Positions 33,532 to 58,396 of a DNA stretch of 64,000 nt are shown here, piece by piece. The notes under the pieces were generated by a model. That model did no database searches and was not told where the DNA came from. It was given only the letters and a program-made list of their open reading frames with translations. How positions within the stretch are numbered: position 1 is the first letter of the stretch; every line of letters begins with the position of its first letter. The position numbers were made by a program, and so were the translations under genes. This DNA comes from Pseudomonas sp. J452 (GTDB lineage Bacteria > Pseudomonadota > Gammaproteobacteria > Pseudomonadales > Pseudomonadaceae): positions 620,001 through 684,000 of the forward strand of contig NZ_CP088294.1 in the NCBI RefSeq assembly GCF_024666525.1, read 5' to 3'.

Positions 33532-33537
33532 GCCTTG

Positions 33538-34875: not shown

Positions 34876-34877
34876 GG

Positions 34878-36203: not shown

Positions 36204-36224
36204 GAACCGGCAGAAACCAGCTGA

Positions 36225-37064
36225 TCAGACCCCTGGCACATAGTGCTGCTCGCCCGCCGGGACCAGCAGGTTGAGCTGGCCCGTGTGTCGAGTCAGCCAG
36301 TCCGGTCCGCTTGCGGCCTGCGCACGCAGGTGGCGCAACAGAAAGTAACTGCCTAGCCGCTCGGCACAGAACGCCCAGACCCGCCCCTGCAGGTCAGGCC
36401 GTCGGGTGTCATGCAACTGCACGCAGCGCCGCACCACCGACTCGATGGCGGTGATATGGCTGACCCAGAACTCCGCCGGCAGCACGCCCAGCTCGATGCC
36501 ACCGGGGAAGAACACCTTTTCGTCGAAGAACGGGATCACCTCCTGCTTGCTCAGCACGCCCAGCTCGACAGCAACGGCGGTGAAACGCAGGAAGTCCTCG
36601 ACATGGTGGACATCCTTGTACTGATACAGGTAACCGTGGTTCTGCCCGTTGAGGGTGAACTGCCCCGGCTTGCCGATCAGAAAATCCGACTCGCTGGGCA
36701 GCATCAGGTCGGCCAGGGCGAACTCCCCCATCTGCTCGGCCGAGAGCACATCCATCACCTGATAATTCTGCGCCTGGGCACCGATGCGCTCGCGCGAGAG
36801 AAACTTGCGGTACTGGCAGATGCCCACCTGGCGAATGCTGCCCGGCTGGCTGAGCAGCAGGTTTTTCAGGGCAAAAGCGCCCGCCGTCGCCCCCAGTACC
36901 GGGTGATAGGGCTCCCACTCGGGGGCCAGATCACGCAGGTTAAGGCGCCCGGCCCCCTGCGCCTCGCCCATGTAGATGGGCGTGACATAGCTCGGAAACT
37001 CGACCTGCAACGGCACATGGGTGAGGCAGGCGTACAGCAGGTTCTCGGGTGGGCAAACAGGCAT
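36225..37064 (-). CDS. putative glycosyltransferase-like protein (DUF4422-like), 279 aa
   Basis: The protein has VTPIYMGEAQGAGRLNLRDL near its start, followed by ATAGAFALKNLLLS and QVGICQYRKFLSRERI. The last resembles the YxGxCHYRR signature of DUF4422 sugar-transfer proteins. There is no signal peptide, so it is cytoplasmic. It starts 38 bp after the GT41 gene on the same strand, and the two may form a glycosylation pair in which this enzyme extends the first sugar. The relationship is modest, so treat it as a lead. Confidence 0.5.
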   Translation of the reverse strand: MPVCPPENLLYACLTHVPLQVEFPSYVTPIYMGEAQGAGRLNLRDLAPEWEPYHPVLGATAGAFALKNLLLSQPGSIRQVGICQYRKFLSRERIGAQAQNYQVMDVLSAEQMGEFALADLMLPSESDFLIGKPGQFTLNGQNHGYLYQYKDVHHVEDFLRFTAVAVELGVLSKQEVIPFFDEKVFFPGGIELGVLPAEFWVSHITAIESVVRRCVQLHDTRRPDLQGRVWAFCAERLGSYFLLRHLRAQAASGPDWLTRHTGQLNLLVPAGEQHYVPGV

Positions 37065-37102
37065 GGAGGGACTTCCTGGATAAACGATAAGGCCGCAGGG
37101 AC

Positions 37103-38938
37103 TCAGTCTGAGCGTTTGCGCTGATGGGCTGCCAGCAGGCCGTCCTCGAAACTGCGCACGAACCGCGGCATGTCGAACAGAGGCGAAGCATCGCGGCCGC
37201 GCTGTAGCCGCTCTTTCAGCGCCTGCAATACTGCCGGAGCGCTAGCCAACTCGACGGCACGCTGCTCGTAACTGGCCAGGTCATTGGTGATCAGCTCCGG
37301 CAACTCCAGTGCCGTCAGCAGGCTACCCGCCATGCGCGAGGCGAAGGTACGCCCCGAACGGGTCAGCACCGGCAGCCCCATCCACAGGGCATCGTTGGCC
37401 GTGGTGCCGCCATTGAACGGATAGGCATCGAGGAACAGGTCCGCCGCCGTGTAGCGCGCCAGGTAGAGTTCCGGCGCCACCCGCGGGGCAAAGATCAGCC
37501 GCTCGCGGGCCACGCCATGCTGCTCGGCGCATGCCAGCAGGTTGGCCTGCGACCACTGGTTGTCGGCCAGTAGCCAAAACACGCTGTTCGGTACCTGGGC
37601 GAGGATACGCATCCAGCAGCTGAACATCTCTTCGTTGAACTTGTAGTTATTGTTGAAGCAGCAGAACACGAAGCTGTCTGGCGGCAGGCCACATTCGGCG
37701 CGACTCGGCAGCGCAGCCACCGGCCGCTGCCGATCGCTGCACTGGAAAGCCGGCAGATACAACGGCGTTTCGCTGTAGAAGGGCTTCTCGGCATCGGGAA
37801 TCAGGTAATGATCGGCGATCACATAATCGATGCAAGGCAGACCGGTCGGCCCAGGAAAACCCAGGTAAGTGATCTGCACCGGCGCCGGACGATAGGCCAG
37901 GATGTTCGGTCGCGCCCCGGAAGTCAGGCCCTGCAGATCGACCAGGATGTCGATTTCCTGCTGGCGGATCAGCTGCGCGGCAGCGGCATCATCCAGCGCG
38001 CCGATCGGGATGAAATGATCCATGGCCGCCTTGACCCGCGCGCGCAGGGCCGAGCCGTCTTCACGGCTCCAGCAGAAACCGTAGACCTCGAAACGCTGAC
38101 GATCGAGCAGCTCGAACAGCTCTACCGTCAGCAACGACACTGCGTGCAGACAGAAATCGGAGGAGAGAAAGGCGATACGCAGGCGCTCGTGCTCATAGCC
38201 CCGCGGCGCCAGTTCAGCAACTCGCTGGTTCACTCGCTCGCTGACAAAGCGCAGGGCCGTGGCCAGTTGCAGCCCAGGGTCATCGGTGGCCGAGAGCATG
38301 GCCAGGGGTGAAGTGGCCTTGAGCAAGTCACCCACGGACAGCTGGACCAGTGGGGTGAACACCGGCCACTCGCACTGTTTCTGGCGTAGATGCACCCAGT
38401 GCTGGATTACCTTCGGCTGCTGCGGGTCGGCCTGCAGGCTGGCCAGCAGCTTGGCTTCCGCCGAATTGAGCTGACGCACTTCCTCCATCAGGCGGCCCAT
38501 GCTGTTGAGCAGCATGATGTACAGCTCGGTATTCAACTCCGGCCCCACCAGCGGGTGATCCAGCATCGACTGCCAGATGACCAGCGCGTTCTCCGCCCGC
38601 CCCTGGCGCTCGATCACCGCGCCCAGATTGAACCAGGCCTGGACGAAATCCGGCTTGCGCATGATCGCAGCACGATAAGCCTGCTCGGCCGCCGGCAACT
38701 GCTCCAGCTGGGAAAGGGTCACGCCCAAGTTGAACTGTACGATGTAATCGGCGGTCGAGCTGCAGTGCCCCAGCCAGCACTGGTAAAGGCGCACCGCGTC
38801 GGTCAGACGCTGCGCAGCCCCCAGGCGCTCGGCCACGACGATCAACTGCGTCGGCTCCAGACTGGCTTGTTCAGCCAACTGCAGAGCATTGAGAAAGGCG
38901 CTATCGAGGTTTGCGGTTGTAACGGGGTTTTCCGGCAT
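37103..38938 (-). CDS. TPR-containing GT41 glycosyltransferase (O-GlcNAc transferase type), 611 aa
   Basis: GT41 enzymes transfer a sugar from a UDP-sugar to Ser/Thr (OGT) or Asn (HMW1C). The N-terminal 200 residues contain TPR-like helices (YRAAIMRKPDFVQAWFNLGAVIER). The catalytic part has ILVDLQGLTSGARPNI, APVQITYLGFPGPTG and FNNNYKFN. Near the end comes DLFLDAYPFNGGTTANDALWMGLPVL, then TFASRMAGSLL, which together are the OGT signature and UDP-binding face. Cytoplasmic. ATG at 38938 follows AAGG. It lies just after the giant repeat gene on the same strand, so that protein, with a Thr/Ser-rich repeat, is the natural substrate candidate. Confidence 0.85.
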   Translation of the reverse strand: MPENPVTTANLDSAFLNALQLAEQASLEPTQLIVVAERLGAAQRLTDAVRLYQCWLGHCSSTADYIVQFNLGVTLSQLEQLPAAEQAYRAAIMRKPDFVQAWFNLGAVIERQGRAENALVIWQSMLDHPLVGPELNTELYIMLLNSMGRLMEEVRQLNSAEAKLLASLQADPQQPKVIQHWVHLRQKQCEWPVFTPLVQLSVGDLLKATSPLAMLSATDDPGLQLATALRFVSERVNQRVAELAPRGYEHERLRIAFLSSDFCLHAVSLLTVELFELLDRQRFEVYGFCWSREDGSALRARVKAAMDHFIPIGALDDAAAAQLIRQQEIDILVDLQGLTSGARPNILAYRPAPVQITYLGFPGPTGLPCIDYVIADHYLIPDAEKPFYSETPLYLPAFQCSDRQRPVAALPSRAECGLPPDSFVFCCFNNNYKFNEEMFSCWMRILAQVPNSVFWLLADNQWSQANLLACAEQHGVARERLIFAPRVAPELYLARYTAADLFLDAYPFNGGTTANDALWMGLPVLTRSGRTFASRMAGSLLTALELPELITNDLASYEQRAVELASAPAVLQALKERLQRGRDASPLFDMPRFVRSFEDGLLAAHQRKRSD

Positions 38939-38984
38939 GCACACGCCTTAACGAGAACAGTCCATCCGACAGACAGGCAAGCAA

Positions 38985-39016
38985 CCCTGCCAAGTGCACC
39001 ATCTCACCTGGCAGGG
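38985..39016 (-). terminator. possible terminator after the giant gene
   Basis: CCCTGCCA (38985-38992) and TGGCAGGG (39009-39016) can form an 8-bp stem with a 16-nt loop. The downstream bases on the minus strand are only moderately T-rich, so attenuation between the giant gene and GT41 is as likely as full termination. Confidence 0.5.
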
Positions 39017-39028
39017 CTACTCCAACGT

Positions 39029-42000
39029 TTACGAATAGAAGCTGGTATTCACGCTGGTTGCAACCAGCAGCTGAATCTCGCCATCGTTGTAGACGTTGTA
39101 CTCGGCACCCTCGACCTGCACGCTACCCGCCGCTTGCCAGGCACCCGCCGGACCAGTGATCACCACACTGTCATTGGCGTTGCCATTGATCAGCATCTGC
39201 ACCGGAGCCGAGGCACCCAAGCCGGTTTCGACCAAGCCCACCTGACCAAACTGGCTGACACTTTGCGCATCCAGCGTCAGGGTAGTCGCCAGCCCGCCAT
39301 CGCCGGCCAGGTTGATCTGGCTGAGGCTATTGGCCGCGACGATATCCGGGTTGACCGCAGTCAGGTCGATGTCCTGACCGTCGCTGCCACCGTTGCGGAA
39401 CCAGGCATCGACGATGCTGTGCACCTGACCATCGACGGTCTCGTAGCTGGAACTCAGGCCGATCCAGTTGCCATTGTTCAGCTGCGAGGTCTGCTCGGCG
39501 CTCAGGTTGATGCTGGCGATCCCCAGGGAAGACAGGTTGTACAACTCGTCCGCCTGGCTGACGCCATCCTGATTGCCATCGACCCAGACGCGCAGTGCAG
39601 CAAAGTCCTGGTCATCGGCACTGATGCGCCCATCCTGGTTGCTATCCAGCTCGGCCAGGGCGGCGAAACCGTCCTCGGAACGACTGCCATCAGCCAGCTC
39701 GGTAGCGTTACCGAACAGCTCACCACCATCGTTGATCACGCCATCAGCGTTGCGGTCGATGGCCAGCAGGCCGTCGCCGCCAGCTACCCAGCCGGTGTTG
39801 TCCAGATCGCCATCGGCATCGATGTCGAAGTGAGTATTGGCCGCCCAATGCAGGGTCTGCACGCCGTCGCCGTTCAGATCGAGGATCAGCGGCGAGGTGT
39901 TCAGCACGGCAATCTGCTCAGTCGCCATCGCCGCCAACTGCTCAGCAGTGAAGGCATCAGCCTGGGTCATGCTCAGCGCGGTCAGTTGATCCGTGGTCAG
40001 GGCCGGGACATCCGCCACATCGATCGCCACCAACTGCGCGGTATTCAGCAGGGCAAAGTCGCCCACCTGAATGGCGCCGATCTGGGCCGAGGTCAGTGCG
40101 GCGATATCCGCTGTTTCCAGCGCCTGCACCTGCACCGACGTCAGCGCAATGATCTGATCGGTGGTCAGCGCTTTAACCTGCGAGGTAGTCAGCGCGATGA
40201 TCTGTGCCGTAGTCAGCGCCGCGATCTGAGCGGAGGTCAGCACCGCCAGGTCGACGTTCTGCATCGCCTGGATCTGCTCGGTGGTCAAGGCCGCCACATC
40301 GCGGGTCTCCAGGGCAGCCACCTGTTGCGTGGTCAAACCGGAAATCTGCGAGGTGGTCAGCGCACGGATCTGATCGGTGCCGAAGGCAACGATCTGCGCC
40401 GTGGTCATCGCGGCCAGGTCGGATATCTGCAGCGCGGCAATCTGCGCCGTGCCGAGTGCCGCCACATCTGCCGTTTCCAGCGCAGCCACCTGGGTCGAGG
40501 TCATGGCCACCACTTGCGAAGTGGTCAAGGCAGCCACCTGAGCAGTGGTCAGGGCAACGATCTGCGCGGTATCCAGCGCTTGCAGATCGGAGGCCTGGAT
40601 GGCGGCGACCTGCGCCGTGCTCAAGGCAGCCAGATCCGCCGTTTCCATGATCGAGAACTGCTCGGTGGTCAGCGAGACAATCTGAGCAGTGGTCAGGGCA
40701 CGCACTTGTTCCGTGGTCAGGGCCTGTATCTGGGCCGTGGTCAACGCGGCCACGTCAGCCCCCTGCATGGCGGCAATCTGCACCGTGGTCAGGGCCTGCA
40801 GCTGCGCAACCTTCAAGGCCGCTACCTGCTCCGTCGTGAGTGCCACTATCTGCGCCGTGGTCAACGCCGGCAGCTGGTCGGTGGTCAGCTCACGCAGCTG
40901 ATCCGTACTCAGCAGGGCCAGATCGGTAGCATCCAGCGCAGCGATCTGCTCGGTCTTCAGCGCCACCAGATCACGGGTTTCCAGGGCTTGCACCTGGGCA
41001 CTGGTGAGGGCCGCGATCTGTGCCGTGCTCAGGGCACGGAACTGATCGGAAGCCAGGGTCTGGATCTGTTCGGTGGTCATGGCCGCAATATCACGGGTTT
41101 CCATGGCCACCAGCTGCGCGGTCGACAGCGCGACTATCTGGTCGGTGGTCAGTGCGGCCACCTGGCCAGTCGTCAGGCCGGCGATAGCGACGCTGCTCAG
41201 GGCGTTGAGGTCTGCTGTTTCCAGCCGGACGATCTGCGCCGTGGTCAGTGCGGCTACCTGAGCGGAACTCAGCGCGGCAGTTTGCGCGGTAGTCAAGGCC
41301 ACCACTTGCGCGGTGGTGAGATTCGCCATGTCGGCGGTCTGCAGGGCAGCGATCTGCGCAGTGCTGAGCAACGCGAAGTCCGGAGTCTGCAAGGCCGCGA
41401 CCTGGGCGCTGGTCAGCGCCACGATCTGCGCCGTAGTCAGTACCTGCACCTGATCGGAGGTCAGCGCCACGATCTGGGCAGTGGTCAGCGCCTCGATATC
41501 GGCAGTTTTCAGCGCCACTACCTGCTGGGTTTCCAGTGCCGCCACCTGAGCGGTGGTCAAGGCAGCCGCTTGTTCCACGGTCAAGCCTTGCAAGGCTTGC
41601 GTGGTCAGTTCCACCAGGTCCGCGACCTCCAACTGGGCCAATTGCGCCGTGGTCAGTGCCGCCACTTGTGCAGAACTCAGGACTGCAGTCTGCGCGGTGG
41701 TCAAGGCAACGATTTGCGCCGTGGTCAGTTCGGCCACATCGCGGGTTTGCAGGGCCGCAATCTGCGCAGTGCTGAGCAGGGCGAAATCAGCCGTTTCAAT
41801 GGCCGCGACCTGACTGGTGGTCAGCGCGACAATCTGTGCGGTGGTCAACGCCTGGACCTGATCACTGGTCAGGGCAGTGATTTGCGCATTGAGCAGCGAC
41901 GCGATATCGCGGGTTTCCATGGCCGCGATCTGCGCCGTGCTCATCACCGCCAGATCGGCGTTCTCGATAGCCGCCACTTGCTCCGTACTCAAGGCCACCA

Positions 42001-45000
42001 CTTGCGCGGTGGTCAGCGCCGCGACCTGGGCGGTAGTCAGAGCGACGATCTGCGCCGTGGTCAGGCCCGCCAGATCCGGGGTCTGGATCTGACGGATCTG
42101 CGTGGTGCTCAGGGCCGCGATATCGGCGGTTTCCATCGCCGCCAACTGGTTCTTGCTCAGCGCCTGGATCTGCTCGCCGGTCAGCGCACCGACCTGAGCG
42201 GTAGTCAGCGCGACAATCTGGTCGGTGGTCAGCACGCTGATGTCGACCGCTTCCAGGCCAGCAATCTGTGCCGTAGTCAGCGCGACCAGATCGGCAGTTT
42301 CCAGCGCAGCAATCTGGCTCTGCGTCAGGGCCTGCAACTGGTCAACGCTCAGGGCACGCACCTGAGCCGTGGTCAGACTCTGGATTTGTCCGGTGGTCAG
42401 CGCCGCAATCTGCGACAACTGCAGGCCGGCGATCTGCGTGGAGTCGAGCACCACCAGGTCAGCGGTCTCCAGGGCACGAACCTGAGCAGTAGTGAGGAAA
42501 CCGATCTGATCCGCGGTGATAGCCGCGACCTGAGCAGTGGTCAACAGCGGAATCACCGTGGTCGACAGCGAAGCCAGGTCCTGGCCCTCCAGGGCGGCAA
42601 TTTGCGCAGTGGTCAGGTTGACCACCTGAGCCGTGGTCAGCGCAGCGGCCTGGGCGGTGGACAGCAGTTGCACCTGATCGGCCGTGAGCGCAGCGATATC
42701 GGCGGTTTCCATGGCCACGATCTGGTCAGTGGTCAGCGCGCCAATCTGTTCCAGGGTCAGGGCACGAGTCTGCTCGGTGGTCAGCGCAACCAGCTGTGCC
42801 GAGCTCAGGCTCTGCACGTTGGCAGTGCCCAGGGCAGCGATCTGCACCCCGGACAGCTTGCTGAACTGCGCGGTACTCAATGCGCCCGTTTGTGCCGTGG
42901 TCAGCGCAGACACTTGCTCCTCGGTCAATGCGGCAATATCGGCCGTGGCCATTGCGGTGATCTGACTGGTGGTGAGCTTGACCAGCTGCGCCACACTCAG
43001 CGCGGCAAAGCGATCCGGCGTCAGGGCGACAATCTGGTCGGTGGTCAGAGCAACGATCTGCGCGGTAGTCAGCGCCGAGATCTGCGCGACGTTGATCGCC
43101 GCGACATCGGCCGTTTCCAACGCTTTGATCTGCGCCGTGGTCAGCGCGGCCAGTTGGCTATTGGTCAGCGAGACAACTTGCTGGGTGGTCAGAGCCGCCA
43201 CTTGCGTGGTGCTCAGGGCCTGCAGGTCGGCAATTTCGATGGCCGCGATCTGATCTGGCGTGAGCGCGGCCAGGTCGGCAATTTCCATGTTGCGGAACTG
43301 CGCTGTGGTCAGCGCCTCGATCTGCTCGGCGGTGAGCGCAGCCATCTGCTCGGTGGTCATGCCCTGTATCTGGCTATTGGTCAGCGCCTCGATCTGCACG
43401 GTGCTCAGGGCGGCCACCTGCGACAGTTTCAGCGCAGCAATATCGGCAGTTTCAATGGCCCGAATCTGAGCGGTATCCAGCGCTGCCAGCTGGGCGTTGG
43501 TCAGCGCACCGACCTGCGCAGTGGTCAAGGCGATCAATTGCACGTTGCTGAGAGCGGCAACGTCCTCGGTTTCCAGCGCAGCCACCTGGCGCGTGGTCAG
43601 GCCGGCTACCTGTGCGGTAGTCAGTGCGACCAGCTGCTCGGTACTCATGGCGACGATCTGAGCAGTGGTCAGCGCGGCCACATCCTGGGTTTCCATGCTG
43701 CGCACCTGGCTGGTGGTCAGCGCGGCTACCTGGGCCGTGGTCAGGGCCGGCACGTTAACCGTGGTCAGGGCGTCGACCAGGTCAGCACCAGCTGCGGCAA
43801 TGGTGCTCGCATCCAGCGCCGCCAATTGGCTCGGGCTCAAGGCTGCCAGTTGGGCACTGGTCAGTGCTGCCACCTGGTCGCTATCCAGCACGGCCAGTTG
43901 TTCGGCCGCCATCGCGGCGATATCCGCAGCCTCCATGGCCGAGATTTGCACGCTGGTCAGGGCATCGATCTGCGCCGTACTCAGGTTGGCCACCTGGTTG
44001 GTGGTCAGGCTCGGCAGTGCCGCCGTGGACAGCGCAGCGATGTCAGCCACTTCCAGGCTGGCAATCTGGTCGGCACTCAAGGCCGCCAGTTGCGCACCGG
44101 TCAGGGCTGCCGCTTGCTCGGTGGTCAACGCCACCAGTTGAGCACTGGTCAGGGCAGCAATGTCGACCGTTTGCAGGGCCGCGATTTGGGCGCTGGTCAA
44201 GGCAGCCACCTGAGCGACCGACAGCAGTTCTACTTGCGCCGTAGTCAGGGCGACGACCTGGGCGGTAGTCAGGGCAGCCACCTGGGCAGTAGTCAGGGCG
44301 ACTATCTGATCCGAGGTGAGCAGGGCCAGGTCGGCGACTTCCACGGCACGAATCTGCGCCGTGGTCAGCGCCGCCAGATCGGCGGTTTCCACCGCGACGA
44401 TCTGCGCCGTGCTGAGGCCGGCGATTTGCGCCGTGGTCAGGGCTTGCGCCTGCAGGGTGGTGAACGCGGCAATCTGCTCGGCACTCAGCTTGGCCAAATC
44501 GGCCAATTCCAGGGCACGCAGTTGCGCGGTGGTCAGGGCCGCAATCTGCGCACCACTGAGCGCCTGCACCTGAGCCGTGCTGAGGGCCACGATCTGCGCG
44601 GTAGTCAGGGCCGCCAGGTCATCGGTTTGCAATGCCGCGACCTGGGTATTGCTCAACACACCAATTTGTACGGTGGTCAGGGTTGCCGCCTGCGCTGTCG
44701 TCAGTGCGGAAATCTGGGCGGCGGTGAGGGCCGCCACATCCGCCGTTTCCAGAGCGCGGATCTGCGCCGTGGTGAGGGCGGCAAGGTCAGCCGTTTCCAG
44801 AGCAGCCACTTGCACGGTGGTCAGGCTAACCACCTGATCCGTGGTCAGCGCGGCGGCCTGCTCGGTGGTCAGCGCACGCACCTGCAAGGTCGTCAGTGCC
44901 TGCAGATCCTGGGTCTCGATCACGCGCAGCTGCGCCGTGGTCAACGCAGCAATCTGCTCGGCGCTCAGCGCCCGCAGCTGAGCACTGCTCAAGGCAATCA

Positions 45001-51000: not shown

Positions 51001-54000
51001 TCTGTGCCGTACTCAAGGCACGGATATCGGCGGTTTCCAGCACAGCGATCTGCGCCGGAGACAGCACATTGAACTGCTCGGTAGACAGTGCCTGAACTTG
51101 GGCGGTGGTCAGCGCAACGATCTGCGCCGTGCCAAGCCCCGTCAGGTCATCAACCTCCAGCGCGGCGATCTGCTCAGTACTCAAGGCAACGACCTGAGCG
51201 GTGCTCAAGGCTGCGACTTGCTGGGCACTCAGTGCCTGCACCTGTTCGGTGGTCAGGGCCGCAATCAGGCTGGTGCTCAGCCCACGAATCGAGGCGGTAC
51301 TGAGCAAGGCCAGGTCACCCGCCTCCAGAGCAGCAAACTGCTCGCTGGTCAGCGCCCCCAGTTGCGCACTGGTCAAGGCCACGACTTGTTCATTGGTCAG
51401 GGCAACGATCTGTGCGCTGGTCAAGGCGCGGAAGTCCTGGGTTTCCAGGGCGCGCAACTGCACAGTGGTCAGAGCCGCTATCTGCTCTGTGCTCAGCGCC
51501 GCGGTCTGTTCCGTGGTGAGGGCGGCGATGCTGGCCGTCGACAGCACGTTGAGGTCATTCAGCTCCAGAGCGCCCAGCTGTGCCGTGGTCAACTTGGCAA
51601 TCTGCGCGGTGCTCAGCGCCGCCGCCTGGGCGGTGGTCAGGGCGATGATCTGCTCGGCACTCAGGGCTTGTAGGTCAGCGGTTTCCAGCGCGCGAATCTG
51701 CGCCGTGGTCAGCGCTTCGATCTGCTCGGTGGTCAGGCCAGCCACCTGGGCGCTGCTCAGGGCGGCAATCTGCACGGTGCTCAGGGCACGCACCAGCGCG
51801 GTGTTCAGCGCACCGACTTGGTCAGCGGAAAGCACCGCCAGATCCTGGGTTTCCAGGGCACGCAGCTGCGCCGTAGTCAGCGCGGCTACTTGCTCAGTGG
51901 TCAGGGCGACCACCTGGGCGGTGGTCAGCGCCAAGATAGATGCAGTCGACAACTCGCTGAAATCAGCGGTTTCCAGTGCGGCCACTTGCTCTGCCGTCAG
52001 CTTGCTGATTTGGCTCGAGGTCAGGGCAACGACCTGGGCGCTGCTCAGGGCCGCAATCTGTGCGGTATTCAGCGCCAGCAGCTGATCGCTGCTGAGTGCC
52101 GCAATCCCCGCGGTAACCAGTTGCGCCAGATCCACGGTTTCCAGCGAAGCCAGTTGCGAGGTAGTCAGCGCCAGGATCTGCGACGAAGTCAGGGCAGCCG
52201 CCTGATCGCTGGTCAGGGCAACGATCTGCTCCTCATTGAGTACGCGCACCTGTGCCGTACCCAGGGCACGAATGCCGGCAGTACCCAGCGCCTGCAGATC
52301 CTGAGTCTGCAGGGATGGCAGTTGCGCGGTAGAAATGCTGGCAACCTGCGCGGTGGTCAACGCCGCCACTTGCTCGGTGGTCAGCGCGATCAGCTGCTCA
52401 TTGCTCAGAGCACGCAGATCTGCAGTTTCCAGCGCGCGCACCTGGGCCGTGGACAGCGACGCCAGTTGTGCGGTGGTCAGTTCCGCCACTTGTGCGGAAG
52501 ACAGGGCCTGTATGGCGGCGACAGTCAGCTGGGCCAGGTCGATAATTTCCAGCGCGGCAATCTGCTCGCCAGTCAGGCTGGCGACCTGGGTGGTGGTCAG
52601 CGCCGCGACTTGAGCGGTGGTCAGGGCCTCGATCTGTTCCGGGCTCAGGCTGGCCAGGTCGGCAGTTTCCAGGGCGCGCACTTGCACCGTGGTCAATGCG
52701 GCAATCTGCGTGCTGCTCAGGGCCGCCAGCTGAACATTGCTCAAGCTACCGATGGCGGCAGTGGAGAGCGCAGCCAGGTCGGCCGTTTGCAGAGCGGCAA
52801 TCTGCGTGGTGGTCAGTTTGCTGACCTGTTCGGTGCTCAGCGCTGCCGCTTGAGCAGTGGTCAGCGCCACAATCTGCGCGGTACTGAGCTGGCGCAGGTC
52901 ACTGGTTTCCAGTGCACGGATCTGCGCAGTGTTCAGGGCCGCCACCTGGGCGGTGGTCAGCGCCTGGATATGGGCGGTACTCAAGGCCACCACATCGGCA
53001 GTTTCCAGTGCGGCAATCTGCGCAGTGGTCAATGCCCGCACCTGGGCCGTAGTCAGAGCCTTGATGTCTTCGGTTTGCAACGCACGGATCTGTGCCGTGC
53101 TGAAGACCGCCAGATCCGCGGTTTCCAGCGCCGCAACTTGCTTGCTGGTCAGCGCAGTAACTTGTGCAGCTGTCAGCGCTTGCGCCTGTGCAGTGGTCAA
53201 TGCGACCAATTGCGCAGTGCTGAGCTGAACCAGATCAGTGGTTTCCAGCGCGACTACCTGCTCTGTAGTCAGGGCTGCGACCTGCTCGGTACCCAGCCCC
53301 TTGATCTGTTCGGTGGTCAGCGCCTTGATCTGGGCACTGGTCAGCGCCTGGGTCTGCGCAGTGGTCAGAGCCTCCACCTGGGCAGTGGTCAGAGCTGCGA
53401 TCTGTGCGGCGGTCAGCTTGCTTATAGCCAGCGTACTGATAGCCGCCAGGTCGGCAGTTTGCAACGCGCGCACCTGGCCCGTGCTCAGACTGGCAACCTG
53501 AGCCGAAGTAAGAGCCGCGGCTTGAGCGGTCCCCAGTGCGACCAGCTGTGCAGTAGAGAGTGCCTTGATATCGGCAGTTTCAATCGCCTGCACCTGGATG
53601 GTGGTGAAGGCCGCCACCTGTGCGGTGGTCAGGGCCGCTACCTGTGCAGTGGTCAGACTGCGCACAGCGGCGGTATCCAATGTGCGCAGGTCAACGGTTT
53701 CGATGGCACGAACCTGCGCGGTGGACATCACCGCGATCTGGGTCGAGCTCAGCGCAGCAGTATGCGCAGTGGTCCAGGCAGCGATCTGCGCGGTGGTCAG
53801 TGCAGCGATCTGCGCGGTAGTCAGCGCGCCAACCTGGCGGGCGATCTGCTGCGAGGCACTCAGTGGGTCATTCAGCGCGGCCACTTGAGCGGTACTCAGC
53901 GCCACCATCTGCGGAATGGTCAGGGCCGCAACCTGGGAAGCCGTGAGAGCGTTGACCTGGGCAGTGGTCAGCGCCTTGATATCAGTGGTTTCGATCGCCT

Positions 54001-57000
54001 GAATCTGGCGCGTAGTCAGGTCATCAATCTGGGTGGTGAGTACGCTGGCAATTTGCGCCGTGGTCATGGCCGCAATGGCCGAGGTCGCCAGGGCCGCCAG
54101 ATCGGTGGTTTCCAGCTTCTGTACCTGGGCGGTGGTCAACGCCGCTACTTGTGCGTTACTCAGGGCAGCAGCTTGAGCGGTAGTAAGGGCAACAATCTGC
54201 GCAGTGGTCAGGCTGACCATTTGCGCCGCCGTGAGCCCCTTGATGGCCGCGGTGCTCAGGGCGGCCAGATCGGCCACCTCCAGTTTCTGCAGTTGCGCAG
54301 TAGTGAGTGCGGCAACTTGCGCCGAAGTCAGGGCCTTGGCTTGCGCCGTGGTCAGCGCAACGATCTGCGCCGTAGTCAGACCCTTGATGTCTGCCGCGTC
54401 GATCGCGGCCACTTGTGCGGTACTCAAAGCCGCCAGCTGAGTCACGCTGAAAGCGCCAATCTGAGCAGAGCTCAACGCTTTGATATCGTCGACTGCGAGC
54501 GCCGGCAGGTCTGCCGTGTCGATGGCAGCAATCTGTGCGGTGGTCAGGCCAGCCATCTGCGTCGGAGTCAGCGCAGCAATCTGCGCAGAGCTCAACAAAG
54601 TGATATCCGCCGCGCTGAAAGCCTGAATATCGGCTACGTCCATCTTGCTCAGTTGCGCCGTGGTCAGGGCCGACACTTGTGCATCGGTCAACGCCACAAC
54701 CTGAGCGGTGGTCAGCCCGGTGATGGCTGCCGTCGAGATGGCGGCCACGTCCGCCACCTGCATGGCGGCAATTTGTGCCGTGGTCAGGGCTCCAACCTGA
54801 GCAGCGGTCAGTGCTTCGGCCTGGGCAGTGGTCAGCGCCTGCAACTGGGCGTTGCTGAGTTTCTGTAGCTGGGCAGCGGTCAAGCCCTTAATAGCCGCCG
54901 TAGTCAGCGCCGCAATATCAGCCACTTCGATAGCTGCGACCTGGGTCGTGGTCAAAGCCGCCACCTGGGCAGCGGTCAACGATGCAGCTTGCGCCGTGGT
55001 CAGCGCCACAATCTGGTCGCTGGTGAGCTTGGCGAAATCAGCCGGTTCCATGGCCGCCAACTGCGCGGTGGTCAGGGCGGCAATTTGCTCATCGGTCAAC
55101 GCCACGACCTGGGCGGTCGTCAAGCCAGCAATAGCAGAGGTCTTGATGGCGGCAAAGTCCGCCGTTTCCAGAGCGGAAATATTGTCGGTGCTAATGGCGC
55201 CCAACTGGGCGGCTGACAGGGCTGCCGCCTGTGCGGTAGTCAGAGCAACCAGCTGAGCCGTGGTCAGCGCGTTGATTTGCGCAGTAGTCATACCGGCGAG
55301 CACGCCGGGAGCCACGACCGGAACGTCTGCAGCATCAATGGCTGCGACCTGCGCAACACTCAAGCCTGCCACCTGGGTCACGCTCAGGGCGCCGATCTGC
55401 GCCGAACTCAGTGCAGCCATGTGCGCAACCGTCAGAGCCTTGACATCGGCCAGATCCAGCTTGGCGATTTGCGCGGTGGTCAGCGCCTGCACCTGGGCAT
55501 TGCTCAGGGCGGCAATTTGCGCGGTAGTGAAGCCGGGGACCGCAGCCGTCGACAGTGCGGCAATATCCGCTACCTCAATCGCCGCCACCTGCGCCGTACT
55601 CATGGCGGCAAGCTGGGTCGACTTCAGAGCCTGCACCTGGAGGGTGGTCAGGGCCGCAATCTGGCCCGCACTGAGCGCAGCGACCTGGGCGTTGCTCAAG
55701 GCAGCCACTGCCGCCGTGCTCAAACCGGCGATATCCACCACTTCAATCGCCGCGATCTGGGCGGTGGACATGCCACCCACCTGCCCGGCAGTCATTGCAC
55801 CCAACTGGCTGGAAGACAAGGCCTCGATATGATCGGTGGTCAGCGCCTGTACATCGGCAATATCCAGTTTGGCCATCTGCGCGGTGGTCAAGGCCTGCAC
55901 CTGAGCATCGCTCAGGGCGGCAATTTGCGCCGTGGTGAAGCCGGTGATAGCGGCTGTAGACAGGGCGGCAACATCTGCCACCTGCATCGCCTGGATCTGC
56001 GCAGTGGTCAGCGCTGCCAACTGGATGGCGCTGAGATTGCTGACTTGCAAAGTGGTCAGGGCCACCACTTGAGCGGTGGTCAGGGCACCAAGCTGGGTGG
56101 TGCTCAGGCTATCGATAGTCTCGCCACTCAACCCCGGCACATCGGCCACTTCAATGGCCTGCACCTGGGCGGTACTCAGGCCGGCAATCTGCGCGGCAGT
56201 CAGCGCGCCAATCTGGGCGGAGCTCAGAGCCACCACCTGCGCGCTGGTCAACGCCTGTACATCTGCCACATCCATGGCCGCTACTTGCGCGGTGGTCAGG
56301 GCCGCCACTTGCGCAGTAGTCAAATTGGCGACCTGGACGGTGGTCAGGGCTTTCACCACCAAAGGATCGAGCACCGCCACATCAGCAACTTCCAGTGCAG
56401 CCACCTGAGCGGTAGTGAGCTTGGAGATTTGTGCCGTGGTCAGCTCTGCCGCCTGCGCGGTGGTCAGGGCCACCATCTGTGCAGTGGTCAGGGCCACGAT
56501 CTGCGCGGTAGTCAAACCACTGATGACACTGGGGTCCAGAGCAGGAATATCGGCCGCATCGATGGCCTGCAGCTGGGCCGAACTCAACCCCTTGACCTGC
56601 ACGCTACTGAGCGCGCCAATTTGGGCAGAATCCAGCGCGGCAATTTGCGCCGTACCCAGCGCACCCAAGTCGGCAGACTCCAGCTTCTCGATCTGAGCAG
56701 TTGTCAAAGCCGCAACCTGAGCAACGGACAAGGCCGCGGCCTGGGCAGTCGTCAGGCTGGCGATCACACCCGTAGACAGACTGGCCAGGTCGGCCGTCTC
56801 CATGGCTACAACCTGCGCGGCAGTCAGTGCCTTGACCTGGGCACTGGTCAGTGCGGCCGCCTGCTCAGTAGTCAATGCGACGATCTGCGCGGTGGTCAGC
56901 GCGGCCACATCGGCCGTTTCCAATACCTGCAGCTGATCGGTCGTCAGCTTGGCAAAATCTTGGGTCTCCAAGGCGGCCGCTTGGGCAGTAGTCAACGCCT

Positions 57001-57880
57001 CCAGCTGCGCATCGGTCAGCAGCGGAATCTGCGCGGTGGTCAGCGCGGCGATCTGGGCGGTGGTCAATGCGGCAAAATCTGCCGGCTGCATGGCTACCAG
57101 CTGGGCACTGGTCAGCGCAGCGATATCTGCCGCATCCAGCGCAGCAGCCTGCGCAGTGGTCAGCGCGACTATCTGCGCGGTGGTCAGTGCCGCCACTTGA
57201 GCAGTGGTCAGCGCCTGAATTTGCGTAGTGGACAGCTTGGCGAAATCAGCGGTTGGCACCACCACCAACTGAGCAGTGGTCAGCGCAGCGATATCTGCAG
57301 TCTCCAGAGCCACCATCTGCGTGCTGCTCAACGCCACGATCTGGGCAGTAGAGAGCGCGGCAACCTGGGCGGTGGTCAACGCCTGAATCTGGGCCGTGGT
57401 CAGCACAGCCAGGTCGGCAGTCTGCATCGCCTGGATCTGGGCGACGCTCATGTTAGCCAGATCCGCGACTTCCAGGGCCTGAACCTGGGCAGTGGTCAAT
57501 GCGACCACCTGAGCCGTAGTCAGCGCTGCAGCCTGTGCAGCCGTCAACGCTTCGATCTGAGCAGTGGTCAGCGCCGCAAAATCAGCGGTTTCGAATGCGC
57601 GAATCTGAGCAGTGGTCAGCTCCGCAAAATCCTCAGTTTCGATTGCCCTGGCTTGAATGCTGCTCAGCGCAATGATCTGGTTGCTGGTCAGCGCCGGCAC
57701 CTGCTCAGTGGACAACGCCACCACGCTAGCAGTCGACAGTGCCTGGATCTGGGCAGTGGTCAACACCGCAAGCTGCTCGGTGGTGATACCGGCGACATCT
57801 TCAGTCGTCAAAGCCGCGATCTGCGCAGTGGTCAGCGCAATTACTTGGTCCGAGGTCAAGCCGGTGAAGATGCTGCTCAT
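39029..57880 (-). CDS. giant octapeptide-repeat protein with C-terminal calcium-loop domain, 6283 aa
   Basis: After a short start (MSSIFTG) almost the entire protein to about residue 5990 consists of an eight-residue unit, consensus A-L-T-T-A-Q-I/V-A, about 748 copies. Breaks are seen near residues 1344 (DPLSASQQIARQ) and 4697 (DASTIAAAGADL). Every fifth unit tends to be LETADL-like, giving a 40-residue super-repeat. There is little aromatic residue and no Cys. The last 290 residues have DLNGDGV, DIDADGD, DRNADGV, DSNQDGR and DGNQDGV, all EF-hand-like loops, ending in a beta-rich tail. No Sec signal and no RTX glycine repeats. Export by the adjacent type I system is inferred. The Thr/Ser dyads could be glycosylated by the GT41 enzyme downstream. 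Adhesin, fibre or surface-layer roles are all possible. Confidence 0.85.
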   Translation of the reverse strand: MSSIFTGLTSDQVIALTTAQIAALTTEDVAGITTEQLAVLTTAQIQALSTASVVALSTEQVPALTSNQIIALSSIQARAIETEDFAELTTAQIRAFETADFAALTTAQIEALTAAQAAALTTAQVVALTTAQVQALEVADLANMSVAQIQAMQTADLAVLTTAQIQALTTAQVAALSTAQIVALSSTQMVALETADIAALTTAQLVVVPTADFAKLSTTQIQALTTAQVAALTTAQIVALTTAQAAALDAADIAALTSAQLVAMQPADFAALTTAQIAALTTAQIPLLTDAQLEALTTAQAAALETQDFAKLTTDQLQVLETADVAALTTAQIVALTTEQAAALTSAQVKALTAAQVVAMETADLASLSTGVIASLTTAQAAALSVAQVAALTTAQIEKLESADLGALGTAQIAALDSAQIGALSSVQVKGLSSAQLQAIDAADIPALDPSVISGLTTAQIVALTTAQMVALTTAQAAELTTAQISKLTTAQVAALEVADVAVLDPLVVKALTTVQVANLTTAQVAALTTAQVAAMDVADVQALTSAQVVALSSAQIGALTAAQIAGLSTAQVQAIEVADVPGLSGETIDSLSTTQLGALTTAQVVALTTLQVSNLSAIQLAALTTAQIQAMQVADVAALSTAAITGFTTAQIAALSDAQVQALTTAQMAKLDIADVQALTTDHIEALSSSQLGAMTAGQVGGMSTAQIAAIEVVDIAGLSTAAVAALSNAQVAALSAGQIAALTTLQVQALKSTQLAAMSTAQVAAIEVADIAALSTAAVPGFTTAQIAALSNAQVQALTTAQIAKLDLADVKALTVAHMAALSSAQIGALSVTQVAGLSVAQVAAIDAADVPVVAPGVLAGMTTAQINALTTAQLVALTTAQAAALSAAQLGAISTDNISALETADFAAIKTSAIAGLTTAQVVALTDEQIAALTTAQLAAMEPADFAKLTSDQIVALTTAQAASLTAAQVAALTTTQVAAIEVADIAALTTAAIKGLTAAQLQKLSNAQLQALTTAQAEALTAAQVGALTTAQIAAMQVADVAAISTAAITGLTTAQVVALTDAQVSALTTAQLSKMDVADIQAFSAADITLLSSAQIAALTPTQMAGLTTAQIAAIDTADLPALAVDDIKALSSAQIGAFSVTQLAALSTAQVAAIDAADIKGLTTAQIVALTTAQAKALTSAQVAALTTAQLQKLEVADLAALSTAAIKGLTAAQMVSLTTAQIVALTTAQAAALSNAQVAALTTAQVQKLETTDLAALATSAIAAMTTAQIASVLTTQIDDLTTRQIQAIETTDIKALTTAQVNALTASQVAALTIPQMVALSTAQVAALNDPLSASQQIARQVGALTTAQIAALTTAQIAAWTTAHTAALSSTQIAVMSTAQVRAIETVDLRTLDTAAVRSLTTAQVAALTTAQVAAFTTIQVQAIETADIKALSTAQLVALGTAQAAALTSAQVASLSTGQVRALQTADLAAISTLAISKLTAAQIAALTTAQVEALTTAQTQALTSAQIKALTTEQIKGLGTEQVAALTTEQVVALETTDLVQLSTAQLVALTTAQAQALTAAQVTALTSKQVAALETADLAVFSTAQIRALQTEDIKALTTAQVRALTTAQIAALETADVVALSTAHIQALTTAQVAALNTAQIRALETSDLRQLSTAQIVALTTAQAAALSTEQVSKLTTTQIAALQTADLAALSTAAIGSLSNVQLAALSSTQIAALTTVQVRALETADLASLSPEQIEALTTAQVAALTTTQVASLTGEQIAALEIIDLAQLTVAAIQALSSAQVAELTTAQLASLSTAQVRALETADLRALSNEQLIALTTEQVAALTTAQVASISTAQLPSLQTQDLQALGTAGIRALGTAQVRVLNEEQIVALTSDQAAALTSSQILALTTSQLASLETVDLAQLVTAGIAALSSDQLLALNTAQIAALSSAQVVALTSSQISKLTAEQVAALETADFSELSTASILALTTAQVVALTTEQVAALTTAQLRALETQDLAVLSADQVGALNTALVRALSTVQIAALSSAQVAGLTTEQIEALTTAQIRALETADLQALSAEQIIALTTAQAAALSTAQIAKLTTAQLGALELNDLNVLSTASIAALTTEQTAALSTEQIAALTTVQLRALETQDFRALTSAQIVALTNEQVVALTSAQLGALTSEQFAALEAGDLALLSTASIRGLSTSLIAALTTEQVQALSAQQVAALSTAQVVALSTEQIAALEVDDLTGLGTAQIVALTTAQVQALSTEQFNVLSPAQIAVLETADIRALSTAQIAALSEDQVVALTSAQLVALTTDQIPALETNDLAALSTAAIRALTPAQVAVLTTAQIYALTEDQAPALTSAQIAAMSTAQIAALEPVDLAALSSATIAGLTSAQVAALNSAQIAALTTEQITALETQDVAALTTDQIVALTQTQVRALGSAQLAALSPAQLAAMEPEDIAKLSTASIPGLTTAQAAALTVEQVAALTAAQIAALETADLRALSSAQIAALSSVQVAALTTEQIAALTTVQLGALDTVDIVALDNSQIAALTTAQVRELSLGQLAALTTTQLRALETADVAALTTAQLVSLSLAQVAALSTSQIVALTTAQVRALAVEQIEALTAAQVAALETVDVAALTTDQVVALNSAQVAALKTAQIEALNTHQLTSLDTVDIAALSAAQIAALSTAQAAALTFEQLAALSTAQVRAIETVDLAAMGTDRIEALSTAQVEALSTQQVVGLTTAQVRALTPEQLNAMTTVQIRAMATDDLAALKTSQIAALSSDQIGSLSTAQVLALTSAQIAAIEVEDIPALSNAQLQVLQTEDLAALTTAQVVALGTAQYAALSTVQIAALGSAQVAALQTQDLAVLSTAQIRALDTVDVAALTTAQIVALTTAQVAALSTEQLAALSTAQVQALQVEDVQALTTAQIVALSTAQVAALTTEQTAALSTVQIAALETADLVRLTSDQIQALLTDQVAALTTTQVAALTTAQIAALETADVAALTTAQVVALSSAQLQTLSSDQLAALSSSQIKAIETADLATLSTAQIVALSSAQIAVLGTDQIAALTTAQVRALELEDIAGLTTAQARALETADLVALSTAQVVALTTAQVAALTTAQVASLTTAQVAALQTQDLVALTTAQVVALSTAQVQALSTAQISALTTAQVQALQTVDLASLSSDQIIALTTAQAAALTTAQIAALTTAQAAALQIADLQVLSTAQLLTMETEDLAALTTAQIAALSTAQFAALSSAQIRALTTEQMAAVEAADLAVLSTAQIRQIETADLAALTSDQIAALGSDQLAALTTSQIVALTSAQIAAIEVGDLPALSATQLRAIETADLVALSTAQIVALTSTQAAALNTAQVAALTTAQIRAMETEDLVALTTAQIVALTTAQAAALSTAQLQALSTVQLRALETADLAALGTAQVVALTTEQIAALRTEQVAALTQTQVAALEVVDVQALTTAQIVALTSTQVQALTTTQIASLSSAQIAAMETADVAALSQEQVIALSGAQPTALTTAQIANLPTAQIASLQTADLAALTTAQIAALTTAQVQALTQEQIPALTTAQVRALDTADVAVLSADQLTSLTTAQMAALTTDQIVALGTAQVAALEVADVAALTTAQIRALETADLRALTVEQVAALTSSQVAALTTVQVSSLTVSQVAALQTQDLVAMTAAQIAALTTAQVQNLTLAQIAALTTTQIRAIEAADLAVFSAEQIDALTTAQAAALTTTQIVALTTAQMTALALADLQALGTAQIEALETADLAALRSDQIAGLTSVQIQALSAAQLQALTTEQVAAIETVDLAAMSPSQIAQLEIADIAALTAAQIVALTTAQVAALTTAQVAALTSEQVGALQVADLQVLSSSQIRAIEVADLAGLKTAQVAALTTEQVVALTTAQIAALSTAQIAALETADVHALSTAQITALTSAQVAALGSDQLQALSTTQIRAIEVADLAALTAAQLVKLTTAQVAALTTAQVVGLTTTQVEALTTAQVAALATAQISALESADVAALTVAQIIALTTAQAGALNSAQLAALSVDQVAALQEADLAAIATAVISSLSAAQIAALSTAQVAALTSDQVAALETADLVAFSVEQIAALTTEQAAALSTLQLSKLTTDQIAALEVADLQALSTSQVAALTTAQVKALTQTQIEALTTAQVRALETADFAALTSDQIAALTSDQIAALSTAQIVALTTAQVVALETPDLAHLTTAQLAAMENADLAALTVEQIAALTSLQLSKLSTAQIASLTTAQVGAIETADLQALTNAQVIALSSAQLRALSAEQIAALTTAQLRVIETQDLQALTTLQVRALTTEQAAALTTDQVVSLTTVQVAALETADLAALTTAQIRALETADVAALTAAQISALTTAQAATLTTVQIGVLSNTQVAALQTDDLAALTTAQIVALSTAQVQALSGAQIAALTTAQLRALELADLAKLSAEQIAAFTTLQAQALTTAQIAGLSTAQIVAVETADLAALTTAQIRAVEVADLALLTSDQIVALTTAQVAALTTAQVVALTTAQVELLSVAQVAALTSAQIAALQTVDIAALTSAQLVALTTEQAAALTGAQLAALSADQIASLEVADIAALSTAALPSLTTNQVANLSTAQIDALTSVQISAMEAADIAAMAAEQLAVLDSDQVAALTSAQLAALSPSQLAALDASTIAAAGADLVDALTTVNVPALTTAQVAALTTSQVRSMETQDVAALTTAQIVAMSTEQLVALTTAQVAGLTTRQVAALETEDVAALSNVQLIALTTAQVGALTNAQLAALDTAQIRAIETADIAALKLSQVAALSTVQIEALTNSQIQGMTTEQMAALTAEQIEALTTAQFRNMEIADLAALTPDQIAAIEIADLQALSTTQVAALTTQQVVSLTNSQLAALTTAQIKALETADVAAINVAQISALTTAQIVALTTDQIVALTPDRFAALSVAQLVKLTTSQITAMATADIAALTEEQVSALTTAQTGALSTAQFSKLSGVQIAALGTANVQSLSSAQLVALTTEQTRALTLEQIGALTTDQIVAMETADIAALTADQVQLLSTAQAAALTTAQVVNLTTAQIAALEGQDLASLSTTVIPLLTTAQVAAITADQIGFLTTAQVRALETADLVVLDSTQIAGLQLSQIAALTTGQIQSLTTAQVRALSVDQLQALTQSQIAALETADLVALTTAQIAGLEAVDISVLTTDQIVALTTAQVGALTGEQIQALSKNQLAAMETADIAALSTTQIRQIQTPDLAGLTTAQIVALTTAQVAALTTAQVVALSTEQVAAIENADLAVMSTAQIAAMETRDIASLLNAQITALTSDQVQALTTAQIVALTTSQVAAIETADFALLSTAQIAALQTRDVAELTTAQIVALTTAQTAVLSSAQVAALTTAQLAQLEVADLVELTTQALQGLTVEQAAALTTAQVAALETQQVVALKTADIEALTTAQIVALTSDQVQVLTTAQIVALTSAQVAALQTPDFALLSTAQIAALQTADMANLTTAQVVALTTAQTAALSSAQVAALTTAQIVRLETADLNALSSVAIAGLTTGQVAALTTDQIVALSTAQLVAMETRDIAAMTTEQIQTLASDQFRALSTAQIAALTSAQVQALETRDLVALKTEQIAALDATDLALLSTDQLRELTTDQLPALTTAQIVALTTEQVAALKVAQLQALTTVQIAAMQGADVAALTTAQIQALTTEQVRALTTAQIVSLTTEQFSIMETADLAALSTAQVAAIQASDLQALDTAQIVALTTAQVAALTTSQVVAMTSTQVAALETADVAALGTAQIAALQISDLAAMTTAQIVAFGTDQIRALTTSQISGLTTQQVAALETRDVAALTTEQIQAMQNVDLAVLTSAQIAALTTAQIIALTTSQVKALTTDQIIALTSVQVQALETADIAALTSAQIGAIQVGDFALLNTAQLVAIDVADVPALTTDQLTALSMTQADAFTAEQLAAMATEQIAVLNTSPLILDLNGDGVQTLHWAANTHFDIDADGDLDNTGWVAGGDGLLAIDRNADGVINDGGELFGNATELADGSRSEDGFAALAELDSNQDGRISADDQDFAALRVWVDGNQDGVSQADELYNLSSLGIASINLSAEQTSQLNNGNWIGLSSSYETVDGQVHSIVDAWFRNGGSDGQDIDLTAVNPDIVAANSLSQINLAGDGGLATTLTLDAQSVSQFGQVGLVETGLGASAPVQMLINGNANDSVVITGPAGAWQAAGSVQVEGAEYNVYNDGEIQLLVATSVNTSFYS
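39906..57862 (-). repeat. 24-bp tandem repeat array of about 748 units, 120-bp super-period
   Basis: The octapeptide is encoded by a 24-bp unit, mostly of GCC/GCG, CTG, ACC/ACT, CAG/CAA and ATC/GTC codons. The ETAD-type unit returns every fifth unit for long stretches, giving 120 bp. Unit sequence varies at nearly every copy, so the array is ancient and maintained by selection on the protein and not a recent amplification. The unusual composition also leaves very long open frames on the opposite strand. Confidence 0.9.
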
Positions 57881-58350: not shown

Positions 58351-58396
58351 AGCAACGTACGATGTGCGCCTTCCAACCTGTCAAATGGACCTTGTC

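Follow-up and report, generated by a model that had tools for sequence, protein, structure and literature searches.

Introduction

The closest described counterpart of the locus studied here is HMW1/HMW1C of Haemophilus, in which a large exported adhesin is modified by a GT41 glycosyltransferase. Adhesin and enzyme are encoded in the same operon, and modification takes place in the cytoplasm. A second relevant system is FlmG of Caulobacter, a soluble enzyme which combines a TPR part with a glycosyltransferase part and whose TPR part binds the export substrate (PMC7591256; the term GT41 is absent from the portion of that paper used here). HMW1C has no TPR and modifies Asn sequons, HMW1 leaves the cell by two-partner secretion, and human OGT, a TPR-bearing relative, places GlcNAc on Ser/Thr (PMC3012730, in the portion used here).

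We analysed a 64,000-nucleotide stretch of the Pseudomonas sp. J452 genome ("the window"), in which a giant protein made of eight-residue repeats ("octads") lies beside a GT41 gene. We consider it likely that this GT41 glycosylates the octad array and that the array is exported; we are less sure of the exact position of the sugar and of a second sugar. The features on which the analysis draws are as follows.

39029..57880, minus strand: giant octad-array protein, an ORF of 6283 codons with an ATG start
~39911-57880, minus strand: octad array, aa 1 to ~5990 of the giant (octad register model and PF20080)
39032..39910, minus strand: last 293 aa of the giant, a domain like the FrpC self-processing module (SPM) plus a strand-rich C-terminal end (PDB sequence match and Foldseek)
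37103..38944, minus strand: TPR-GT41 glycosyltransferase, 613 aa (PF13844 and TPR)
36225..37064, minus strand: second glycosyltransferase, 279 aa, with a predicted GT111 (WbbM)-like fold (AlphaFold and Foldseek)
31798..33531, plus strand: type I secretion ABC transporter, PrtD subfamily (TIGR01842, 716.5 bits, cut-off 510.15)
33535..34875, plus strand: HlyD-type membrane fusion protein (TIGR01843, 362.4 bits, cut-off 208.65)
34872..36203, plus strand: TolC-type outer membrane channel (TIGR01844, 275.7 bits, cut-off 225.15)

The octad array

A first-pass annotation of this DNA had described a 6283-aa ORF with about 748 octads and roughly 1,000 or more Thr/Ser. The length is exact, an eight-column register model gives 745 complete octads over residues 1-5990, interrupted at a single break zone (aa 1340-1348), and Ser+Thr number 1261 in the array (a count only), alongside 54 Asn. 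Octads make up residues 1 to ~5990; the last ~290 aa are an SPM-like domain that was missed earlier.

The unit had also been thought to belong to no described system, but it is already catalogued as Pfam PF20080 (ALTTAQ_rpt). Two 800-aa pieces of the array matched this family with E-values of 1.8e-196 and 2.7e-228 and scores of 635.9 and 737.8 bits (cut-off 26.4), and because the E-values are this small on both pieces, a chance origin of the repeat is excluded. The exact octad ALTTAQIA occurs 15 times, the array contains 566 distinct octads, and columns 1-8 have the composition A 76% / L 85% / T 46%, S 23%, E 14% / T 62%, S 12% / A 58% / Q 72%, D 21% / I 36%, V 30%, L 22% / A 47%. D-type octads (LETADxA) return at intervals of mostly five or seven units, with autocorrelations of 0.53 and 0.31. 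Within the open-access literature, we recognised nothing on the pairing of octad array and GT41, and found no paper for "ALTTAQ" or "HeliScrew".

No signal peptide was apparent by eye in the giant's translation, and no RTX nonapeptide repeats (PF00353) were found at E<=5 in the giant's tail or the two array pieces. A 4054-aa plus-strand ORF over the array was taken as a mirror of the 24-base period and not as a gene, and side matches of the array pieces to other Pfam families (LRR_EndoS, Phage_TAC_7, CAAP1) were taken as composition effects.

Six orthologous array stretches of ~3,300 aa each (ended by the locus edge) align to the window array with 0 to 6 gap columns beyond 40 added residues, and the residue at octad position 6 (Q or D) agrees at 95-99% of sites between the window array and these orthologues (L005-L007, L010, L011 and L019). 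These two results rule out variable-number tandem repeat drift among the closest orthologues, unlike between clades, where array lengths differ. Q- and D-type octads thus follow a frozen order among orthologues, perhaps because of superhelix packing.

The GT41 enzyme and its partners

The first-pass annotation placed a TPR-GT41 directly after the giant on the same strand, and this was correct: the enzyme matches PF13844 at E 2.8e-77, carries an N-terminal TPR, as OGT-type GT41s do, and its ORF begins 84 bp past that of the giant. The 279-aa ORF begins another 38 bp past the GT41 ORF, also on the minus strand, and a scan of 36000-39200 returned 0 promoters and 0 terminators. The closest solved structure to the enzyme is XcOGT (2jlb, E 9.1e-99 over residues 83-606). 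Its His, Lys, Thr-Thr and Asp active-site residues, which we take from human OGT to be the catalytic/UDP-binding positions, are all present. The array-adjacent loci contain 68 GT41 domains, counting second copies, and the same residues are kept in 66 (H), 64 (K), 63 (T), 63 (T) and 67 (D) of them.

The enzyme does not belong with the HMW1C-like N-glycosyltransferases. It has TPR, NCBIfam NGTferase gives it 24.3 bits against a cut-off of 1000, and there are 8 NXS/T sequons in the 5990 aa of the array. We therefore ruled out Asn-linked (HMW1C-like) modification on the presence of TPR and the number of sequons.

The 279-aa protein had been called DUF4422-like, a label which its fold bears out better than its sequence does. 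It has no Pfam match at E<=0.01, and DUF4422 reaches E 0.13 (12.5 bits, cut-off 25). Its AlphaFold model (pLDDT 93), however, matches WbbM (6u4b, entry as a whole) by Foldseek at E 1.3e-8 with TMq 0.72. The DUF4422 N-terminal part of WbbM is a GT111 galactofuranosyltransferase (PMC12269835, in the portion used here). The protein has 368 sequence matches at E<=0.001 (itself included), and a search with the window sequence detected it in only 6/80 GT41 loci (defined in the next section). Other sugar-modifying partners are found at other loci: GT41 is fused to a methyltransferase in L119 and to GT2/GT92 in L033, which also has an FkbM methyltransferase; two GT1 enzymes and a Stf0 sulfotransferase lie near GT41 in L048; L037 has GT2 and FdtA genes; and L129 has methyltransferases.

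Some genomes hold further GT41s. Another, distant TPR-GT41 of 939 aa is encoded in the window's genome (L126, G000:C1:3330000-3349999) among genes that look flagellar by eye, G418 likewise has a flagellar-neighbourhood GT41 (L121), and G563 carries an additional GT41 as well. Each substrate class may have a GT41 of its own. Family f40 contains single open frames of ~2,300-3,800 aa with several GT41 stretches each (G105:C92:24000-43000, i.e., L130:1254-12554; also G065, G085, G089, G117 and G129). In two genomes, G041 and G101, at least 52 and at least 46 GT41 stretches were counted, with one domain often yielding two of them. Octad arrays are present in these genomes too.

Co-occurrence of arrays and GT41

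The first-pass annotation had proposed looking for octads and GT41 together in other genomes, and they do co-occur. A search with the window GT41 gave 206 relatives in named genomes, of which we took the best 80, and a profile made from the octads of the window array was run on all ORFs >=60 aa of these 80 loci. An octad ORF lies directly upstream (<=600 bp, same strand) in 53/80. Another 11 have one further upstream on the same strand (7) or elsewhere in the locus/orientation (4); 15 have none and one sequence is too short. Titles of the 53 loci include Pseudomonas, Duganella/Rugamonas, Comamonadaceae, Geobacteraceae, Methylococcaceae, Thauera and Holophagaceae. Two of the 15 loci without octads (L026 and L056) have an SPM-like tail upstream at the contig end. 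Six array-less GT41 relatives form one clade, and five of them adjoin a gene that looks RsmB-like by eye.

The pair was also sought within the genus, using one draw of 199 Pseudomonas genomes (thresholds: GT41 E<=1e-100, PF20080 E<=1e-5, tail E<=1e-40). Among the matches listed, GT41 was found in 10 genomes, the tail in 11 and PF20080 in 12, and all 10 GT41 genomes are within both other sets, so 10/12 Pseudomonas array genomes have this GT41. In these 10, the GT41 match starts 83-112 bp after the tail match. Some genomes depart from this pattern: in G423, an array of 1015 aa without a tail precedes a divergent 931-aa TPR-GT41-methyltransferase; the array of G418 ends at a contig end, and its sole GT41 is on another contig by the flagellar-looking genes; and G389 encodes a protein resembling the tail but neither octads nor GT41. 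A Pseudomonas from another draw (G563) has array, tail, GT41 and exporter trio in the window's order, and G542, from outside the family, has a tail-less 2466-aa array ~105 bp ahead of GT41. Gene neighbourhoods of G542 and G563 were read from translated ORFs.

In family f40, GT41 was found in 14/14 array genomes of one search and 2/2 of another. Among the matches listed, array and GT41 share a contig in 8/14 genomes, ~1 to 24 kb apart, and no array is on the same contig as GT41 in 6/14. A control genome, Caulobacter vibrioides, has matches to both PF20080 and PF13844.

Adjacency to the array could be operon convenience if GT41 acts on some other protein, above all flagellin, as FlmG does in Caulobacter. 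We think this quite unlikely. It would fit some of the more distant GT41s, which lie by flagellar genes (L121, and L126, the second TPR-GT41 of the window's own genome, in an apparent flagellar cluster; gene names read by eye), and the flagellin-like genes near GT41 in L048 (read by eye from translated starts). However, these flagellar enzymes of two genomes (L126 in one; L121 and L086, which are one gene, in the other) group apart from the array enzymes, in a distant clade of the tree, so there is already another candidate enzyme for flagellin. The array GT41, moreover, follows arrays across several phyla and also in the tail-less pairs of G423 and G542, and octad sequence itself varies with GT41 presence, as described below. 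We therefore retain the array as the candidate substrate.

Octad position 4

Octad register for the position-4 tally was set by columns 1, 2, 6 and 7 only, and in the drawn genomes (18 with GT41, plus the others) the tally covers the stretch around each genome's best match. PF20080 has its own preference for Thr at position 4, which biases searches that start from it, while the GT41-first set is free of this bias. For the second array-first search, the query was a Pro-type stretch, i.e., one with Pro at position 4.

The window array has Thr/Ser at position 4 in 563/745 octads (0.76; 61% of D-type and 79% of Q-type octads). In the 53 GT41-adjacent arrays (15 to 376 octads each), the Thr/Ser fraction is 0.50-1.00 and Pro is <=0.17. 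Among the matches listed in the phylum draw, all 19/19 array genomes with GT41 fall between 0.37 (G542) and 0.94 (G045), whereas seven array genomes lack GT41, of which five could be scored and all 5/5 lie at 0.00-0.22, and two have no complete octads.

Among the matches listed, GT41 is absent from G194, G197, G274, G583, G231, G258, G056, G188 and G132. The first five have Thr/Ser fractions of 0.00, 0.06, 0.12, 0.22 and 0.00 and Pro fractions of 0.61, 0.61, 0.56, 0.25 and 0.14, respectively. G258 and G056 have no complete octads, and G188 has six, none with Thr/Ser at position 4. The idea that the array is the substrate of GT41 gains from co-occurrence, but repeat homologues lacking a GT41 neighbour, which the first-pass annotation had named as a refutation of it, do occur. 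Since these five arrays mostly lack Thr/Ser at position 4, the idea is sharpened and not refuted.

The lineages compared are f1, f37 and f40 with GT41 versus f44 and f10 without, and 16 of the 19 genomes with GT41 belong to one family. The ranking would have a chance of 1 in 42,504 if the 24 genomes were independent, but they are not. The split draws on a small number of independent lineages.

Position 3 is Thr/Ser-rich in arrays both with and without GT41. In the six Pseudomonas orthologues, Thr/Ser is kept at 82-97% of position 4 and 92-95% of position 3, and position 4 thus does not stand out by conservation alone.

Predicted octad structure

The last 30 octads plus tail were modelled with AlphaFold, which predicted each octad as a single short helix, four to seven residues long and usually five or six. 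Block pLDDT of the octad model was 88-98 over residues 1-210 and 69-82 over 211-240. The helix starts at position 4 in 30/30 modelled octads. Position 4 is therefore the first helical residue in the model and position 3 the N-cap, which would explain why Thr/Ser/Glu is found at position 3 with or without the enzyme. Apart from the tail, Foldseek against solved structures up to April 2026 found only a weak likeness to a mesothelin-like superhelix (E 2.3e-4). PDB 9zem (HeliScrew4) contains a 120-aa chain whose octads match the array by sequence at E 9.7e-15, and 10/11 of its octads are Pro-type.

Pro is a usual choice at the first helical residue, and the Pro-type arrays suggest, at the level of sequence, that the fold can do without Thr at position 4. 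This apparent independence from the fold, together with the link between Thr-4 and GT41, makes position 4 the candidate acceptor.

Thr-4 might instead be a helix-start preference or composition effect, in which case array and GT41 would merely travel together and the arrays would be an unmodified spring or spacer. That Pro-type octads and HeliScrew4 seem to fold without Thr-4 agrees with such a reading, as does the similar conservation of positions 3 and 4 in Pseudomonas. It does not, however, account for Thr/Ser-4 with GT41 versus Pro-4 without it, and the preference for Thr over Ser is stronger at position 4 (62% and 12%) than at the N-cap (46% and 23%). We regard it as improbable and favour position 4 as a candidate glycosylation site.

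The C-terminal tail and export

The giant's tail matches the self-processing module of FrpC by sequence (PDB 6sjw/6sjx; 6sjw at E 4.6e-37), and its AlphaFold model matches 6sjw by Foldseek (E 1.2e-16, TMt 0.80). A tail query matched 58/80 GT41 loci. DxDxDG-type calcium motifs are visible by eye in the tail. FrpC cleaves itself at Asp-Pro, and low cytosolic calcium leaves RTX proteins unfolded for type I export (PMC7078468, in the portion used here). The window has Ser-Pro at the scissile site, and 33 aligned tails have Thr-Pro (21), Ser-Pro (11) or an unparsed pair (1). Self-cleavage is not expected because Asp before Pro is replaced by Ser/Thr, and we ruled out clip-and-link processing on this basis (32/33 tails). 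The tail is thus probably a calcium-folding end without self-cleavage and, by analogy with RTX proteins, the giant too would stay unfolded in the low-calcium cytosol until type I export.

An AprDEF-type operon had been noted next to these genes. Its three proteins do exceed the NCBIfam cut-offs for a type I secretion system (ABC, HlyD and TolC components), but the trio (31798-36203) is on the plus strand and convergent with the giant and GT41 genes, not co-directional with them. The trio is close to GT41 in 17/20 Pseudomonas-titled loci (exceptions: L023, L025 and L058), and this gene linkage makes export of the giant by the neighbouring type I system plausible in Pseudomonas.

Two RTX proteins flank the locus, one M10 metalloprotease-like (29323-31575) and a second with five RTX stretches (58364-60568). 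The exporter could therefore serve the serralysin-like M10 protease, with the giant leaving by another route or staying inside. This has some appeal: the PrtD-type trio directly follows the metalloprotease, the giant's tail yielded no RTX nonapeptides, and among the listed ORFs (few of them searched), we recognised no exporter near the array/GT41 pairs of G423 and G542. Against it, tblastn with the two RTX genes gave no match at E<=1e-5 at any of the 80 GT41 loci, which rules out the M10 protease as the exporter's conserved partner, while the trio stays by the array as described, and in G045, from another family, HlyD and ABC genes lie between array and GT41. We find the protease reading rather doubtful and keep the giant as the exporter's putative cargo. 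The tail is absent from the G423 and G542 arrays, which counts against the scheme proposed below.

By eye, window positions 1-28254 contain an integrase-like gene (26929-28254), relaxase/helicase-like and plasmid-type genes, and partly lower G+C. Read in this way from translations, the stretch is probably an integrated mobile element adjoining the array locus.

Discussion

We propose the following scheme. The giant would be a secreted solenoid of ~745 one-helix octads. In the cytoplasm, the adjacent OGT-type GT41 would O-glycosylate the octads, mainly on Thr/Ser at position 4, and the GT111-like enzyme may add a second sugar. The glycosylated chain would then exit via the neighbouring PrtD/HlyD/TolC exporter, and its SPM-like tail, once outside, would fold with calcium but not cleave itself. 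This would yield a long rod evenly studded with sugars, either on the surface or released.

What the analysis shows is the order of the genes, a conserved pairing of array and GT41, the split at Thr/Ser-4 and the predicted folds; glycosylation, its site, the sugar, export and a surface role, like the fibre or adhesin of the first-pass annotation, are what we infer. Judged from sequence, the giants are probably sugar-coated, perhaps before export. Array glycosylation is now better supported than it was on first reading, and the earlier interpretation as a whole is partly supported.

More broadly, and tentatively, giant arrays with their own OGT-type enzymes may form a widespread class of bacterial glycoproteins, found in several proteobacterial families, Desulfuromonadales and Holophagaceae. 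Each would be a helical screw with a fixed acceptor Thr, on which a superhelical TPR enzyme lays a regular lattice of hundreds of sugar sites; partner enzymes would then lengthen, methylate or sulfate this lattice. Arrays without the enzyme would mostly lack the acceptor Thr as well, often with Pro in its place. If true, this could be a bacterial counterpart of mucin (very long, regularly sugar-coated and exported), and it would give PF20080 a functional hypothesis. We know of no natural substrates for most bacterial OGT relatives, and a GT41 adjoining an array of many similar acceptor units offers one that is directly testable, with arrays that have or lack the enzyme as a natural series.

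Comparison with known systems

PF20080 describes the same octad unit, and we found no function given for it. HeliScrew4 has similar octads, but they are Pro-type at position 4. The FrpC module resembles the tail in both fold and sequence, but the Asp before Pro belongs to FrpC, with Ser or Thr in its place here. XcOGT and human OGT are the closest solved relatives of the window GT41 and share its TPR + GT-B architecture; the literature consulted describes no repeat-array partner for either, whereas the window locus has a putative one.

The substrate of FlmG is flagellin and its donor is pseudaminic acid (PMC7591256, in the portion used here), whereas the partner here is an octad array. HMW1/HMW1C differs from this locus in three respects: here the enzyme has TPR, the array has few Asn (54/5990, with 8 NXS/T) and the neighbouring exporter is type I. 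The arrangement of an exported protein with its own cytoplasmic glycosyltransferase is therefore already known, but repeat fold, exporter and acceptor pattern differ from both HMW1/HMW1C and flagellin/FlmG. What this analysis adds is the predicted one-helix-per-octad model and the apparent split of Thr/Ser at position 4 by GT41 presence.
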